This document shows positions 12,985-18,676 of a stretch of 64,000 bases of DNA, one piece after another. The stretch lies in assembly GCF_009498235.1 (NCBI RefSeq), contig NZ_CP044205.1:3969389-4033388 (forward strand), in the 5' to 3' direction. Under the pieces are notes generated by a model, which saw nothing but the letters and a program-made list of their open reading frames with translations, was not told where the DNA came from and did not search any database. Numbering within the stretch: position 1 is the first letter of the stretch; every line of letters starts with the position of its first letter. Source of the DNA: Candidatus Methylospira mobilis (GTDB lineage Bacteria > Pseudomonadota > Gammaproteobacteria > Methylococcales > Methylococcaceae). Made by a program: the position numbers and the translations under genes.

Positions 12985-13175
12985 TTTTTATATAGACGGG
13001 TCGGCTGGGCGCTTACTCTTATTTAAGTTCCGCCTTATCATCAAGCAGCGCCATCACGTCACTATCGGAATTATTGGGCGCCGCCTACCTCCCATCGTGT
13101 GTGTGGCTAAGGTTTCCCAAAGCCCTTACAAACACCGAAGTGAGTGCAGAAACCTACGGAGGCAGGCGACATAAA
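12985..13175 (-). ncRNA. Candidate DRT3 template ncRNA, 3' of the RT genes
   Basis: Directly after the second RT stop, the minus-strand RNA can fold into a 13-bp stem: GUCGCCUGCCUCC (from 13158-13170) with GGAGGUAGGCGGC (from 13080-13092), with two G-U pairs. Inside it are a second stem (UAGGUUUC with GAAACC-U-UA, from 13149-13156 and 13108-13116) and a CAC-UUCG-GUG hairpin (13133-13142). CACACACAC (13097-13105) lies unpaired between the inner and outer 3' arms, as a template would. Further pairing (UUCCG/CGGAA or GGCGCU/AGCGCC) is possible toward 12995. The ends are estimates. From memory, DRT3 uses an ncRNA with an ACACAC template; the link is inferred from that and from position. Confidence 0.62.
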
Positions 13176-15113
13176 CTAGTTGTAAGAGAAAATATACTCT
13201 TTTTTCTCTAAGCTATTTTTTAAATATTCTGGGTCTCTCCAGCTAACAATAAAATCTTCATTAAGCGCTATTCGGCTTTGCGTATCCACATTGAATTGTA
13301 CTGGATTTTGTTTGCTATCAAAGGTAATTTTTTTAACGTTTTCTATCATATTTTTTCTCACTGCCCCATCAATGTATGGGCAAGCCAGATAATCAAAGTA
13401 GAACATAAAGTATTCAGAAGCTATAAACATATCGTCGCTTTTCAACAAGTAATCATCAGCTGCTTTAACCAGATCATCTCGTAGTTGCTCATACCCGGGC
13501 TTCTTCTTTATATATAGCATGAATGTTATCCAACGAAAATAGAAATCATTGGTTTCTGAATGCTTCTCCAAGCTACCAAAATACTCTTTCAGTTTATTCT
13601 CCGGCAGTTGATATTTTGATGGTAGCATTGTCAAAATAGTCAAGAGGTTTAATGTCTCAAGCCCAATCATGTCATTCGCATGATTAATAACTATATTTAT
13701 TGCTTGCTTAACATGGTTGAAAATTTTATTGTGAATTATTTCTTTATGGCTTTCCGACCAATCCGAAGTTCTTTCAAGCAGATCGTGAATTAATCGCGCC
13801 AATCTATCTGTTGGCCTTATCCGAATATCCATTGCATGAACAAAAAACAGCACATCCAAATCAACTAACAGCCAATTTAAATGAAACTCTTCTTTTGTAT
13901 CAATTTCTGCTACCTTTGACAAGTACATAAGCATTCGCTTTGTAATTGCACTAAACAGATAGTTTGAAATTGAGCTGTACTCAACTTTATGATTAGCCAA
14001 AGCCATTTTGATTTCAGATATTGTCTTATTGGCTTTAGAGCTTGGCTTTGTTAACTGAGCAATGGATTCTAAATCTGTGTCTTTTTCATTATAACGTGAA
14101 CTGTAGTATTCACCAATAGCATGGCTTAATGCGTGTTTAGCCAAGGATATCTCAGTTGCAAAAGGCCTTGAAGCTATTGTTGTTTTTGCTTCATTCAAAT
14201 ACATCTTATATTCCAATAGACATGATTTCAGGGCTTTTATGAAAACTGTTTTCACTTCTTCAGAGCGAAAGAAAACAAAATAATCATCGACATAGCGCCT
14301 AAAGTCATAGTCTTTCGAAATATGACGGTTTTTCTGACTCATTTTCTCGACCAGGTTTAAATCGATTTTCTGTAAAATAATTTCTGCAAAAATCCGACTT
14401 ACTTCAGGCCCTACGATAATACCGTTAGTCTCACGATAATTTGTGAGTTGCATTAAGCTGTCGAATTCCCCATCAAAACTTCCCTTTGATTTAGCTTTTG
14501 CCAATCGCTTATTTTTTACAGCCCAACCAATTGAATGCGTATAGATACTGGGAAAGCACTTGGATACATCAACCTGAAGCATGCTGTGAAACTGCTTTTC
14601 CAGTTTGTGATACTCATAAGACTCGAAAAAACGATATAGAAAAGGATACTTTTTGTATTTAAAATAGGAGCTTGAAACAATTCGTTCTTCGTCTGCGCTT
14701 TCAACACCATCAGTTAGCTTTGATCCTTCTTGGGTTTTACCATAGAAGTTGGTTGATTTTCTATAAGGGTGTCTTAAAGAGTATTTTGATTTTGTACAGT
14801 AATATTCGATTAGATCATCGTATTCATTATAAAAATCACAAACTTTCAACTGAGCTACCGGGTGCATGATTGATATTGCGCGTGACGTATTTTTACCGCC
14901 TCGACATACAAGGTAGTCCAAAGGAATATAGACTCCAGTTTTACTTTCAAAATCTAGAGCCGAAATAGCCTTATACGCATTAGCATGCGCTGGCGTACTA
15001 AACCGTTGATACATTGTGAAATTAGAGAACCATAAAGGTAGTTCATAGGGAAGAACATCGGTTAGCAACGTTCTTAACTTGTCATTAGTATCGACTTTAA
15101 TAATGTCAGACAT
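13176..15113 (-). CDS. drt3b: Anti-phage reverse transcriptase, Drt3b-like (UG8)
   Basis: A 645-residue reverse transcriptase. Motif A is LQVDVSKCFPSI (Asp182), motif B GIIVGPEVSRIFAEI (231-245), motif C RRYVDDYFVFF (YVDD 274-277). The last 350 residues are a helical extension without a recognised nuclease. The ATG overlaps the stop of the first RT gene by 8 bp, so the two are co-translated. The pair of unequal RTs (393 and 645 residues) fits DRT type 3, in which Drt3a (UG3) and Drt3b (UG8) act together with an ncRNA. From memory, Drt3b makes the second DNA strand without a nucleic-acid template, using an N-terminal Glu; Glu24 in LPYELPLWFSN is a candidate here. Much richer in A+T than its surroundings. 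Confidence 0.78.
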   Translation of the reverse strand: MSDIIKVDTNDKLRTLLTDVLPYELPLWFSNFTMYQRFSTPAHANAYKAISALDFESKTGVYIPLDYLVCRGGKNTSRAISIMHPVAQLKVCDFYNEYDDLIEYYCTKSKYSLRHPYRKSTNFYGKTQEGSKLTDGVESADEERIVSSSYFKYKKYPFLYRFFESYEYHKLEKQFHSMLQVDVSKCFPSIYTHSIGWAVKNKRLAKAKSKGSFDGEFDSLMQLTNYRETNGIIVGPEVSRIFAEIILQKIDLNLVEKMSQKNRHISKDYDFRRYVDDYFVFFRSEEVKTVFIKALKSCLLEYKMYLNEAKTTIASRPFATEISLAKHALSHAIGEYYSSRYNEKDTDLESIAQLTKPSSKANKTISEIKMALANHKVEYSSISNYLFSAITKRMLMYLSKVAEIDTKEEFHLNWLLVDLDVLFFVHAMDIRIRPTDRLARLIHDLLERTSDWSESHKEIIHNKIFNHVKQAINIVINHANDMIGLETLNLLTILTMLPSKYQLPENKLKEYFGSLEKHSETNDFYFRWITFMLYIKKKPGYEQLRDDLVKAADDYLLKSDDMFIASEYFMFYFDYLACPYIDGAVRKNMIENVKKITFDSKQNPVQFNVDTQSRIALNEDFIVSWRDPEYLKNSLEKKEYIFSYN

Positions 15114-16287
15114 TTTGCCAAACCTGCATTATTTGAGCTGTTTGCTTCTTGCTAAATTTCCCTATATTCCGTTTTCTTGCATTTCCATACATTGATATTT
15201 TCTTGATTTTATCTTTCTCTTGTTGGTTGAGTCCAAATCGAGGGTTGGCCAATTGTTGACAGAGAAAAGCATCAAGAGATTTTAAACACTCAAAGCCATC
15301 AGTCACATACTGATAGTTATGAGCAATGCCTGCTAACAAATCTCCGTTCTTACCCTTGCGTACTATTTTCAGCATACAAAGATATTCAAGCCTTCTTTTT
15401 AGAAGGGATATATTGTTTTTCTTTTTATGATCACAAAAACTGATTGCTATTCGAGATTTAATTTTATTTAACTTCGACCGAGAGATTTTCAAAGTTACTT
15501 TGTTTGGCTTATTATTTTCAGGTGCCACCTTGATCGCATAGCCTAAGTAATCAAACTCTGCTGAGTTTGAAGGCTTGCTATAGTACTTGCCGGGATTTAT
15601 ATTGAGACTGATCCCCATTTCATTCATGAGGCCTTCAACATAAGTTTGTACGCCACTTTCCTTACCTGCTGGCGTTAGAATAATAACATCATCAACATAT
15701 CTTGCGCTATATATCACATCAGGGTATGATGCCACCTTATTATCTAACGATTCTAAATAAAGCTCTGCAAGTGTTGGACTTATTGACAACCCTCTCGGCA
15801 AACCATGCATATCATGATTACTCGAAAGATCACTATAAATTCCGTTAAGTAACTTGATACATTCAGGGGCGAGAATCATATCATCTTCGAACCTATTGAT
15901 GAGATATTCAAATCTTATGGATTCATAGCAATCTTTGACATCTAGTCGAAGGACGTGATAGTTGCCAGCGTCTTTTAGTAGCGTTATTAGCTGTCTGACT
16001 ATTCGATTACGATCTGACTGCCTAACTTTATAAATTCGTCGAACAAACCGATCGAGCAGCTTGATTGCAAAATAATCTTCCATATTCGCCGCGATAAAAA
16101 CTGGCTTGCTCTTTACTGTCCTTGTCTCTAGTGATGATAAGGCATTGTTATATGACTTCCAGTACTGAACTGTGTGATCTACGGCTGTTTCGACATCACC
16201 ATAAACAGACAATAAATCCCATTGCCAAACGTCTGATGATGTAAGTGCTTTAGAAAGTTGTTCTCTATCAAAAACCTGTTTCAGCAT
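15106..16287 (-). CDS. drt3a: Anti-phage reverse transcriptase, Drt3a-like (UG3)
   Basis: A 393-residue reverse transcriptase with a complete active site. Motif A is RLDVKDCYESI (Asp116), motif B GLPRGLSISPTLAE (162-175), motif C ARYVDDVIIL (YVDD 197-200). There is no maturase (X/En) domain or group II intron RNA around it, and no retron msr/msd was seen, so it belongs with the 'unknown group' defence RTs. It is first in a two-gene operon with the larger RT. In DRT3 this enzyme is thought to copy the AC-repeat of the ncRNA into GT-repeat DNA. The ATG at 16287 lacks a clear binding site. Low G+C and surrounding repeats suggest horizontal gain. Confidence 0.8.
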   Translation of the reverse strand: MLKQVFDREQLSKALTSSDVWQWDLLSVYGDVETAVDHTVQYWKSYNNALSSLETRTVKSKPVFIAANMEDYFAIKLLDRFVRRIYKVRQSDRNRIVRQLITLLKDAGNYHVLRLDVKDCYESIRFEYLINRFEDDMILAPECIKLLNGIYSDLSSNHDMHGLPRGLSISPTLAELYLESLDNKVASYPDVIYSARYVDDVIILTPAGKESGVQTYVEGLMNEMGISLNINPGKYYSKPSNSAEFDYLGYAIKVAPENNKPNKVTLKISRSKLNKIKSRIAISFCDHKKKNNISLLKRRLEYLCMLKIVRKGKNGDLLAGIAHNYQYVTDGFECLKSLDAFLCQQLANPRFGLNQQEKDKIKKISMYGNARKRNIGKFSKKQTAQIMQVWQNV

Positions 16288-16388
16288 TGGTTCAGTCTAT
16301 CACTTAGAGTTGGCACCAAGGGTAATATCCGCCTAAAATCCTTATAGTTTTACTTGATTACCCATAAGCTGCAATAGCAACCAAGGAA

Positions 16389-16483
16389 CAAATAGGGTCT
16401 AGATAAGTTGCACCTATCATTTTCGACCAAAAGGGCTGGACGCCAGCCGTTTTCCAGTAAGTTAATCAGCTCGGTTAGCTACG
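16389..16483. repeat. Dispersed repeat, copy A
   Basis: Begins CAAATAGGGTCTAGATAAGTTG and runs through TTTTCGACCAAAAGGG and GACGCCAGCCGTTTTCCAG. It matches copy B (17370-17471) over about 95 bp with a handful of differences and copy C (18178-18236) over its first half. It supplies the 3' end and stop of the Doc pseudogene. Identity unknown; possibly an insertion-sequence end. Confidence 0.75.
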
Positions 16484-16847
16484 CACCGTATTCCGGCAAA
16501 GCCAGAGCGCCAGCGCATCAAAATGAAAAGCACCTTTTTCATATAAACCAGCGATGAACGCGTAAGTTTCCTCGGCGCTCGCGGTGAATGTCACACCGTT
16601 AACAGCCAGGAAGGTATACATTACCGCAAAAGCAGTTCGCTTGTTGCCGTCCAAAAAGGGATGGTTTTGAGCCAGGCTCTCCCAAAGCGCGGCCGCCTCT
16701 TCAATCAGGTCGGCGTGATCCGGTTTGGGGGCGATATAAAGCGGCTTCCAGCAGTCCGGCATCACGAATACCGGCGGTGCCGCCATAGCGCTCGATTTGG
16801 TCTTCATGAATAGCGAGAACTTCCGATAACGTCAGGTAATCGGTCAT
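16475..16847 (-). pseudogene. doc: Doc-type toxin (Fic fold), frameshifted
   Basis: From the ATG at 16847: TDYLTLSEVLAIHEDQIERY, then GGTAGIRDAGLLEAALYRPQTG, the Doc N-terminus. A frame break follows near 16725, after which the Fic core reads ADLIEEAAALWESLAQ, then HPFLDGNKRTAFA, with the catalytic motif HxFx(D/N)GNKR complete. Intact Doc phosphorylates EF-Tu. The two halves cannot be translated together as the sequence stands, and the extreme C-terminus is replaced by repeat copy A. The ATG overlaps the antitoxin stop region, as in a TA operon. Confidence 0.75.
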
Positions 16848-17071
16848 TGCGCGAGCTTCTGATAAAGGTCGCTGTATTTCGCATGGCTTTCCAGGTAAGC
16901 CGCCATGACATCTGGACGGGGACGCGCCTGCTTTCGTTTTTCCAGCAGATCAGCCAATGCTTCATCCACAAGCGCTTGAAGCTGCCGCCCCTCTTGTTCT
17001 GCCAAGGCGCGTACCGCTGCCAGAATTTCTCTATTGACTTGTGTGGCAAATTTTTCACGGACTTGAGACAT
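16844..17071 (-). CDS. Antitoxin paired with the Doc-type toxin
   Basis: Seventy-five residues (SQVREKFATQVNREILAAV, then RALAEQEGRQLQALVDEAL). The helix-rich pattern is of ribbon-helix-helix antitoxins rather than classical Phd, with an arginine-rich tail. AAGGGAAGG precedes the ATG at 17071. It overlaps the toxin start by 4 bp, so it was the first gene of a coupled TA operon. It is open and could still be made although the toxin is broken. Confidence 0.65.
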   Translation of the reverse strand: MSQVREKFATQVNREILAAVRALAEQEGRQLQALVDEALADLLEKRKQARPRPDVMAAYLESHAKYSDLYQKLAQ

Positions 17072-17194
17072 GACGCCTTCCCTTATGGTTTTCCAGCCGC
17101 CAACCTATCATGATAAATCATGAAACATCAAGACAAATACATGGGATAACTTCCGGGAGATTTTCCTGGCGATATCCTTATTAATCAACGGCAC

Positions 17195-17370
17195 CTAAGC
17201 TGCTTGTTGATTTTGTTCGTGCAGCAGTTCAAGCAGAAATTCCGGCGCTAGATCTGGCTCGTTGGCCCAGGCAACGGTTTTCATGACGGGGTGTTGATAG
17301 GCGGTTGCAAATAGCGCCTTATCTTTCAATGGCTCAAACATTTCGCCCCACAGTTCTTGTCCCAGATCGC
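17195..17370 (-). pseudogene. DUF2442-like gene, copy 1, 5' end lost
   Basis: The readable part is DLGQELWGEMFEPLKDKALF and onward to LLELLHEQNQQAA, the C-terminal half of DUF2442 proteins. The 5' half is replaced exactly at 17370 by repeat copy B. The matching gene at 18420-18676 has the 5' half but carries a frameshift, and about 224 bp (17147-17370 versus 18379-18602) are duplicated between them. An open frame continues into the repeat (MISLLENGWRLS...) but this start is not a true family start. Confidence 0.65.
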
Positions 17371-17471
17371 AAATAGGGTCAGGTCTAGATAAGTTGCATC
17401 TATCATTTTCGACCAAAAGGGATAGACGCCAGCCGTTTTCCAGTAAGCTAATCAAGTTCGGTTATCTACGG
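17370..17471. repeat. Dispersed repeat, copy B
   Basis: Nearly the same as copy A (16389-16483): CAAATAGGGTC, an extra AGG, then TCTAGATAAGTTGCATC and the same 3' half to CTACG. Its left edge cuts the DUF2442 copy 1 gene, which shows that the repeat arrived by insertion or recombination after the gene duplication. Confidence 0.75.
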
Positions 17472-17517
17472 AAGCAAGGGGTCTTGTTATTTGCTGCATG
17501 ACATAGAAGAAACATTG

Positions 17518-17898
17518 TCATCCTTTCTCGACGCCATTTAATCCCAATGCAAGTATTGCCGTATCGCGTGTCAGCAGCGTCAACCCTTCATTCTGCGCTT
17601 GTGCGATGAGCAGCCGATCAAAGGGATCGGCATGTACGCAAGTCAGGTAGCGCACGGCTTCTATGTGGCGCGGCAGGACTGGCAGCAGGATAAAGCCCTG
17701 TGCTTCAAGTTGTTCGGTTATATCGCCTTGGGGCAAGGGTAGTTTGCCTTTGGTATTTTTCAGCACCATCTCCCATATGCTGAGGGTGCTCACGACGATT
17801 TCAGCCTTAGTGATGGTATTTTGTGTGGATGTTCCGAGACAAACATCTGCTGTCATCCACCAGTAGATCAGATGTGTATCAAGAAGGTATCGCGTCAT
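17518..17898 (-). CDS. PIN-domain toxin, intact
   Basis: A 126-residue PIN ribonuclease beginning TRYLLDTHLIYWWMT. Acidic active-site positions are present: D in LLDTH, E in SIWEMVLKN, D in DPFDRLLIAQA and the LLTRDTAIL end. The SIWEM and HADPFDRLL pattern is that of the Sll0205-like PIN subgroup, which pairs with Phd/YefM antitoxins, as here. The start overlaps the antitoxin stop by 4 bp (ATGA). With vapBC at 11.8 kb, it is one of two TA pairs in the window without a visible defect. Confidence 0.88.
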   Translation of the reverse strand: MTRYLLDTHLIYWWMTADVCLGTSTQNTITKAEIVVSTLSIWEMVLKNTKGKLPLPQGDITEQLEAQGFILLPVLPRHIEAVRYLTCVHADPFDRLLIAQAQNEGLTLLTRDTAILALGLNGVEKG

Positions 17899-18140
17899 GG
17901 GTATTCACTGCCGGTGATCTCGGCGGCAATGGCTGCATTGGTAGCAGGCGAATCCCAATCGGGATCAGCTTTGGGTAACGCCGACCACGCACCAGGCTTG
18001 CGTCTGACATCCTGCTTCTCAACTTTTACCAGCCTGACAACCGGAATCCCGTTGTTGGCAATTACCACGTCCTCGCCAGCCAGTGCTGCTTGTACCAGTT
18101 GCGATAGCTGGCTTTGAGCATCGAGTATATTGCATTGCAT
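17895..18140 (-). CDS. Phd/YefM-type antitoxin
   Basis: Eighty-one residues from the ATG at 18140, preceded by AGGAGC; an earlier in-frame start lacks a site. The MQCNILDAQSQLSQLVQAAL, then AGEDVVIANNGIPVVRLV pattern is the Phd/YefM DNA-binding fold, and the C-terminal tail (LPKADPDWDSPATNAAIA) would wrap the PIN toxin. It is coupled to the toxin by an ATGA overlap. Upstream is repeat copy C and the doubled string ACAAGGGGTCA. Confidence 0.85.
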   Translation of the reverse strand: MQCNILDAQSQLSQLVQAALAGEDVVIANNGIPVVRLVKVEKQDVRRKPGAWSALPKADPDWDSPATNAAIAAEITGSEYP

Positions 18141-18177
18141 GGGTTGCTCCTGAAAAAACAAGGGGTCAAAAAAAACA

Positions 18178-18236
18178 AGGGGTCATGTCTAGATAAGTTG
18201 CATCTATCTTTTTCGACCGACCTAAAGGGTCAGACT
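18178..18236. repeat. Dispersed repeat, copy C (short)
   Basis: TCTAGATAAGTTGCATCTAT and TTTTCGACC match copies A and B, after which the sequence leaves the family (GACCTAAAGGGTCAG). It is preceded by two copies of ACAAGGGGTCA. It lies upstream of the Phd/PIN operon, so it could influence its promoter. Confidence 0.65.
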
Positions 18237-18419
18237 CCTTTGATTCGCTGATAGTGTCGCAAACAAACGTCGCATCTTCAGTTCAATGCCTTTATCATAA
18301 CCCATCACGCTCCGTTATTCGTCAGCAGCCACAACCCTCATTATCCATTAGCGCGCTTCGCTCTCCACGATAACTTCCGGTAGATTATTTCTTGCGACAT
18401 CCTTATTAATCAACGGCTC

Positions 18420-18676
18420 CTAAACCGCTTGTTGATTTTGTTCATGCAGCAGCTCAAGCAACAATTCCGGCGCCGGATCTGCCTCGTTGGCCCAGGCGAC
18501 GGTTTTCATGACAGGATGTTGATAGGCGGTTGCAAATAGCGCCTTATCTTTCAGTGGTTCAAACATTTCGCCCACAGTTCTTGTCCCAGATCGATTTGAC
18601 CGGATTCGCCATTGTTGAAGACGAGCCAAAGCTGATATTCGCCAGGATATTTGACTTCAGTAGTATGCAGAATCAT
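18420..18676 (-). pseudogene. DUF2442-like gene, copy 2, frameshifted
   Basis: From the ATG at 18676: MILHTTEVKYPGEYQLWLVF, then NNGESGQIDLGQELW, a full DUF2442 N-terminus. A missing base near 18570 (CGCCCAC here, CGCCCCAC in copy 1 at 17347) breaks the frame, and the rest, EMFEPLKDKALFATAYQH, is in another frame. DUF2442 genes commonly sit after DUF4160 genes and the two may act as a TA-like pair; the DUF4160 gene is directly upstream. The comparison with copy 1 shows that one base was lost. Confidence 0.7.

Follow-up and report, generated by a model that had tools for sequence, protein, structure and literature searches.

Which function do two overlapping reverse transcriptase genes serve in the chromosome of Candidatus Methylospira mobilis, and does the DNA behind them encode a third component? 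The genes lie in a stretch of 64,000 nucleotides (contig NZ_CP044205.1, positions 3,969,389 to 4,033,388 of the forward strand), which we call the window. A first-pass annotation, made from the letters alone, had assigned them, together with a downstream RNA, to a type 3 defence-associated reverse transcriptase (DRT3) system, in which a UG3 and a UG8 enzyme act side by side. We find that this assignment holds: the Drt3a and Drt3b models are the best matches by wide margins and all three components were located. The locus has both reverse transcriptase genes and, in the encoded proteins, all residues for catalysis, gating and priming; it also has a structured RNA that contains an ACACACAC template. 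It is in our view very probable that the locus is a complete DRT3 cassette that works by the published mechanism; its expression, its DNA products, the formation of a complex and the defence function are what we infer. The protein-coding part of the locus is composed as follows.

15106..16287, minus strand: drt3a, coding for the Drt3a/UG3 reverse transcriptase (393 aa, YVDD at 197-200); PADLOC, NCBIfam and PDB matches
13176..15113, minus strand: drt3b, coding for the Drt3b/UG8 reverse transcriptase (645 aa, YVDD at 274-277); PADLOC, NCBIfam and PDB matches, residue mapping
15106..15113, minus strand: 8-bp overlap of the drt3a end with the drt3b start, found in 10 of 10 members of the clade described below

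Two reverse transcriptases of the DRT3 families

Both open reading frames are present exactly as annotated before, including their 8-bp overlap and the intact YVDD motif in each protein. The two genes are adjacent and follow each other in the order drt3a-drt3b, as in DRT3. The comparison with the NCBI and PADLOC DRT3 models, which had been suggested as a check, gave strong matches to both families. Drt3a reaches 415 bits with the PADLOC Drt3a model (E=7.2e-125), followed by the family UG17 with 115 bits, and 339 bits with the NCBIfam equivalog NF041747, whose cut-off is 200. Drt3b scores 665 bits with the PADLOC Drt3b model (E=3.9e-200; runner-up Drt6, 170 bits) and 630 bits with the equivalog NF041748 (cut-off 350). 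These E-values and the purifying selection described below exclude chance. The best solved full-length matches point in the same direction: Drt3a finds the DRT3 structure 9z6y (9z6y_A, E=1e-31), while Drt3b finds the DRT3 entries 26cz (26cz_A) and 9z6y (9z6y_H). The complex in PDB 9z6y/9z6z, with a Drt3a of 426 aa and a Drt3b of 650 aa, is presumably the DRT3 assembly described as 6:6:6 in PMC13314766; it is homologous to both window proteins over their full length, with divergent sequence. In the trees of both enzymes the window proteins fall into the same ten-member clade (100/100 support), which is separated from the E. coli system EcoDRT3 by long branches.

Could the two proteins instead belong to a retron, a group II intron or a diversity-generating retroelement (DGR)? 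The RVT_1 domain is common to all of these classes, the group II intron reverse transcriptase model gives E=4e-21 on Drt3a, and the fold matches of the predicted Drt3a structure, whose pLDDT of 68 is middling, are generic reverse transcriptases. Against this, the Drt3a and Drt3b models lie above their cut-offs, while the group II model stays at 75 bits where 300 are needed. Pfam detects RVT_1 only and no maturase domain, and no Rfam family, introns included, passes its gathering score in the 64 kb, so that the earlier statement that no maturase or intron surrounds the genes is correct and a group II intron was rejected. A retron was rejected because its models score 39 bits against a cut-off of 235 and lose to Drt3a and Drt3b; msr-msd was not separately searched. 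The DGR was rejected via the Drt3a and Drt3b model matches, DGR-specific repeats not having been searched. A grouping with one of these families, named in advance as the observation that would speak against DRT3, was hence not seen, the retron and group II models scoring far lower, and we consider that the chance of such an origin is negligible.

The key residues can be followed one by one. In Drt3a, D116, R196, D199 and D200 are invariant in 18 Drt3a sequences. For E. coli Drt3b it was reported that E22 gates dATP, R241 gates dCTP and R71 stacks on the incoming base, that D182 and the YVDD aspartate bind Mg2+, that F187 contacts the sugar and that Y666 primes DNA synthesis (PMC13174585). In a phmmer alignment to 26cz, the E. 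coli residues E22, R71, D182, F187, R241 and Y276-D279 correspond to E24, R78, D182, F187, R240 and Y274-D277 of the window protein, and Y644, like Y666 in E. coli, stands second to last in the chain. Every Drt3b residue with a role assigned in E. coli is consequently kept. An alignment of 19 Drt3b sequences shows no variation at D182, F187, R240, Y274, D276, D277 or Y644, and at least 90% conservation of E24, R78 and V275. We predict that Drt3a is an RNA-templated poly(dTdG) polymerase and that Drt3b is a protein-primed, protein-templated poly(dCdA) polymerase.

Two observations on other Drt3b proteins belong here. In the L031 and L046 lineages an aspartate replaces the glutamate at the dATP gate (E22 position) and the ACACAC-type template is retained; this matches the tolerance of E22D that was reported for E. 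coli. In E. coli CFSAN064035 (L049, 4460-6499), Drt3b is annotated with 679 aa and a C-terminus unlike that of the closely related EcoDRT3 locus L050, which ends with RTAYE. This copy lacks the priming tyrosine and its frame reads on into the RNA region, so that it is probably inactive.

A compact template RNA behind drt3b

The downstream RNA postulated in the first-pass annotation exists as a conserved, structured element with an ACACAC template directly after drt3b. Its parts are the following.

13066..13178, minus strand: DRT3 non-coding RNA (ncRNA), ~110 nt, limits approximate, starting no later than the drt3b stop codon; conservation, fold, covariance model
13158..13171, minus strand: 5' strand of the closing helix P1 (UGUCGCCUGCCUCC), 14 bp with 13079-13092
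13127..13148, minus strand: hairpin P2, with 85-90% of cells paired and both sides changed in one pair
13105..13124, minus strand: hairpin P3, which abuts the template 5' end; 95% of cells paired in 10 sequences, mostly invariant
13105-13097, minus strand: template-containing run CACACACAC
13097..13104, minus strand: RNA template 5'-ACACACAC-3', 8 nt, invariant in the clade
13079..13092, minus strand: 3' strand of P1, 4 nt past the template, the same spacing as in E. coli DRT3

Ten loci from different families share the conserved RNA block, which lies on the same strand as drt3b. P1 encloses P2, P3 and the template; in the ten sequences 96% of its cells are paired and 3 pairs are changed on both sides. 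Over all helices, standard pairs make up 94% of the pair cells, a value that was reached by none of 500 shuffles, while slid versions of the structure gave 36-49%. The template itself is the sole (AC)4-or-longer run on either strand of the window, and P3, which stands directly against it, is a candidate template-boundary element.

How far does the RNA extend? The locus had been drawn from 12985 to 16287. This span does contain the genes and the downstream RNA; the end at 12985 is not borne out, since the conserved RNA stops near 13067. An RNA reaching 12985 was rejected because the segment 13066-12985 is common to no relative and the fold of the longer stretch stands out less (z=-2.5 for 191 nt vs z=-4.0 for the 106-nt RNA).

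When 311 genomes of the order were searched with a covariance model of the ten clade RNAs, exactly 5 gave a match, and these are the five with a Drt3b of this clade. Three other genomes of the order with a Drt3b (31-40% identity) represent other DRT3 lineages and are without this RNA. A published covariance model covers 41 DRT3 systems (PMC13174585).

Several results weigh against the assignment of the locus to a working DRT3 system. Drt3b is just ~34% identical to EcoDRT3b, and the AlphaFold model of its reverse transcriptase half is too poor for use. Within the ten close RNA sequences, the covariation score was matched by 13 of 500 shuffles and the number of changed pairs by 27 of 500, so that pair covariation lends the fold modest support. 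The clade's covariance model matched no other DRT3 clade; the homology of the RNA across DRT3 therefore rests on the layout and the AC run. Finally, the lowest-energy fold of the free RNA pairs the template with GGUGUUUGU and has an advantage of 6.5 kcal/mol over the open form, and an open template is therefore expected to need protein binding. The free RNA may adopt this closed fold. RNAalifold also proposes the template/GGUGUUUGU pairing; we do not prefer it as the conserved structure, because it depends on the invariant template, is disrupted in some relatives (L008, L043), and would hide the template. The fold used here is the one with the open template.

Likeness to E. coli DRT3 and the expected mechanism

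The reference for all comparisons is EcoDRT3 (26cz; PMC13174585), to which the E. coli locus L050 is near-identical, its Drt3b being about the same as the solved 26cz protein. The window shares with it the order drt3a-drt3b-ncRNA, the YVDD motif in both enzymes, the gate residues E/R/R and the penultimate tyrosine. In both systems the AC template lies 4 nt ahead of the 3' strand of the closing helix, which has 10 bp in L050 and 14 bp in the window. All full-length DRT3 loci that we examined have an AC run behind drt3b, and in some other DRT3 clades the closing helix is not significant by a simple pairing test. The differences are equally clear. Drt3b is ~34% and Drt3a ~29% identical to the E. 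coli proteins, the template run reads CACACACAC instead of ACACAC, and the genes overlap by 8 bp where EcoDRT3 has a 3-bp gap. The RNA core, counted from P1 end to P1 end, measures ~93 nt compared to ~134 nt in L050, with the short hairpin of the window directly abutting the template. Unlike EcoDRT3, the window cassette has no P4-like satellite around it.

Repeat synthesis from an RNA template is also known from the Class 2 systems DRT9 and DRT10, which are reported to copy a template motif of a structured RNA repeatedly into repeat DNA (PMC13174585, PMC12632851). They share this RNA-templated step with DRT3 and differ by having a single reverse transcriptase, with nothing like Drt3b beside it. 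On the window Drt3a, the score of the Drt9 model is far below that of the Drt3a model.

Taking the mechanism from the E. coli system (PMC13174585; review PMC13314766), we would expect the following events in the methanotroph host. The genes drt3a and drt3b and the ncRNA would be transcribed as one minus-strand unit. Drt3a would bind the RNA, whose template would lie open between P3 and P1, and copy ACACAC repeatedly to give poly(dTdG), with P3 blocking read-through beyond the template. A Drt3b oligomer would prime DNA on its own Tyr644 and alternate dC and dA without a nucleic-acid template, with E24 gating dATP and R240 gating dCTP, to furnish poly(dCdA). Both strands would then anneal to repeat double-stranded DNA, which RecBCD would hold at a low level. 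When a phage disables RecBCD, or another trigger acts, the DNA would accumulate and the infected cell would die or stop growing, sparing the population. The two enzymes and the template RNA thus probably make toxic double-stranded TG/CA-repeat DNA.

The host encodes RecB, RecC, RecD and GreA, and RecBCD and GreA are the host factors named in the E. coli DRT3 work (PMC13174585). Their presence is permissive, not diagnostic, because RecB-family genes and GreA are common. The host genes recB, recD and recC lie outside the window at three separate chromosomal sites (G000:C1 2620834, 2874317, 3019726) and form no single operon. In a Vreelandella genome (L006, 7207-11858) a DRT3 cassette adjoins a recD-like gene, with a large gene beside it; since RecBCD is reported to restrain DRT3, one may ask whether this is chance.

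Does DRT3 by descent also mean the E. coli product and trigger? The window system could make a repeat of another sequence or length, or respond to a trigger besides RecBCD inhibition. Such a divergence would fit the distinct clade with its long stem branches in both trees, the ~34% identity of Drt3b and the compact RNA that finds no match across clades. The template, however, remains pure ACACACAC, and the gates E24 and R240 correspond to the residues by which C/A alternation is imposed in E. coli. The intact RecB, RecC and RecD of the host also speak for the known trigger, with little discrimination since RecB-family genes are common. We regard a different product or trigger as unlikely and retain the E. 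coli mechanism as the reading for this locus.

Spread and genomic setting of the cassette

Where did the cassette come from? It recurs in other gammaproteobacteria, and a blastn comparison with nine relatives defines its limits.

13067..16352, minus strand: whole cassette, the block common to other bacteria in unrelated surroundings

The homologous block begins 0-65 nt upstream of drt3a and ends ~100-110 nt past the drt3b stop; beyond these limits the close relatives show no homology to the cassette and each genome continues with unrelated sequence. The nearest public relatives include Methylomonas sp. WSC-7 and a metagenome-assembled genome (MAG) of the Methylococcaceae. Together with Marinobacterium, Oceanospirillum, Vreelandella and Shewanella they form the loci L002-L007, in which Drt3b is 78-89% identical to the window protein. 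These cassettes belong to the same clade and have the same RNA, overlap and cassette limits. They differ in their neighbours, for example a type IV secretion system (T4SS) coupling protein, HsdR, an acyl-CoA dehydrogenase or recD. Because the shared block consists of drt3a, drt3b and the RNA with at most 65 nt upstream, and has different neighbours each time, the sequences argue that the bare cassette is horizontally transferred. No close relative was found in IMG/VR and phage records.

The surroundings agree with what had been noted before. Over both genes the GC content is 36-37%, compared to mostly 50-60% elsewhere in the window, and the neighbours are toxin-antitoxin (TA) genes: a BrnA antitoxin, two PIN proteins, Fic/Doc and a Phd-like antitoxin. 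At 16390-18593 the window holds a toxin-antitoxin array with local duplications, among them a 186-bp duplication with copies at 17163 and 18388. A 39-79 bp repeat (TCTAGATAAGTTGCATCTATC...) occurs near 16390-18218 in three copies, all within this array and none elsewhere in the genome; being local to the array, with three copies in the whole genome, it was rejected as the cassette end.

A low-GC foreign block amid TA genes and local duplications could also be the decaying, non-functional remnant of a DRT3 system, and broken copies are indeed known elsewhere (L009, L010, L049). In the window, however, neither gene contains a stop or frameshift, all key residues are present and the RNA is conserved to its ends. 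Compared with five relatives, dN/dS is 0.08-0.27 for both genes, which are therefore under purifying selection. It is thus very improbable that the locus is a remnant, and an intact DRT3 cassette remains our reading. Truncated Drt3b genes were seen in Zobellella (L010, 5001-5465, only 155 residues match), in a Cloacimonadota MAG (L009) and in G947 (L044); the long AC run is absent after drt3b in all three, and these copies have apparently decayed.

DRT3 is uncommon. Among 311 genomes of the order, 8 have a Drt3b at E<=1e-20, and among 369 of the class 2 do; in a phylum sample, 2 of 398 genomes exceed the NCBIfam cut-off. Each sample includes the window's own genome. The host genome, a single 4.70-Mb contig, contains two pmoA-family (PF02461) genes, which is why we call the organism a methanotroph. 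According to the first-pass annotation, DRT3 is not known to have been reported from a methanotroph-like chromosome. We likewise found no published methanotroph DRT3 in a partial literature search, which is weak evidence; several public genomes of the methanotroph order do carry the system, so that the remark holds only in part.

In summary, the locus is a real new member of the DRT3 family, which was recently explained; the template RNA here is unusually short, and the type of system is not new. The picture of how DRT3 works is unchanged by this finding and the novelty is modest. It does widen the range of DRT3, a system that combines RNA-templated with protein-templated DNA synthesis: a methanotroph is now included, and so is a distinct clade whose RNA is compact. 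One may speculate, tentatively, that this clade is a compact DRT3 variant in which an RNA of ~100 nt, with one boundary hairpin set against an 8-nt template, suffices both for templating and for assembly with Drt3b. Such a variant would move between bacteria with no accessory genes, as a cassette of just 3.3 kb, and its control of repeat length or its trigger may not be that of EcoDRT3. Since the residues proposed for gating and priming in Drt3b are all conserved at ~34% overall identity, the clade allows these assignments to be tested independently, and its small RNA could show which template, boundary and scaffold parts a DRT3 system needs at the least.

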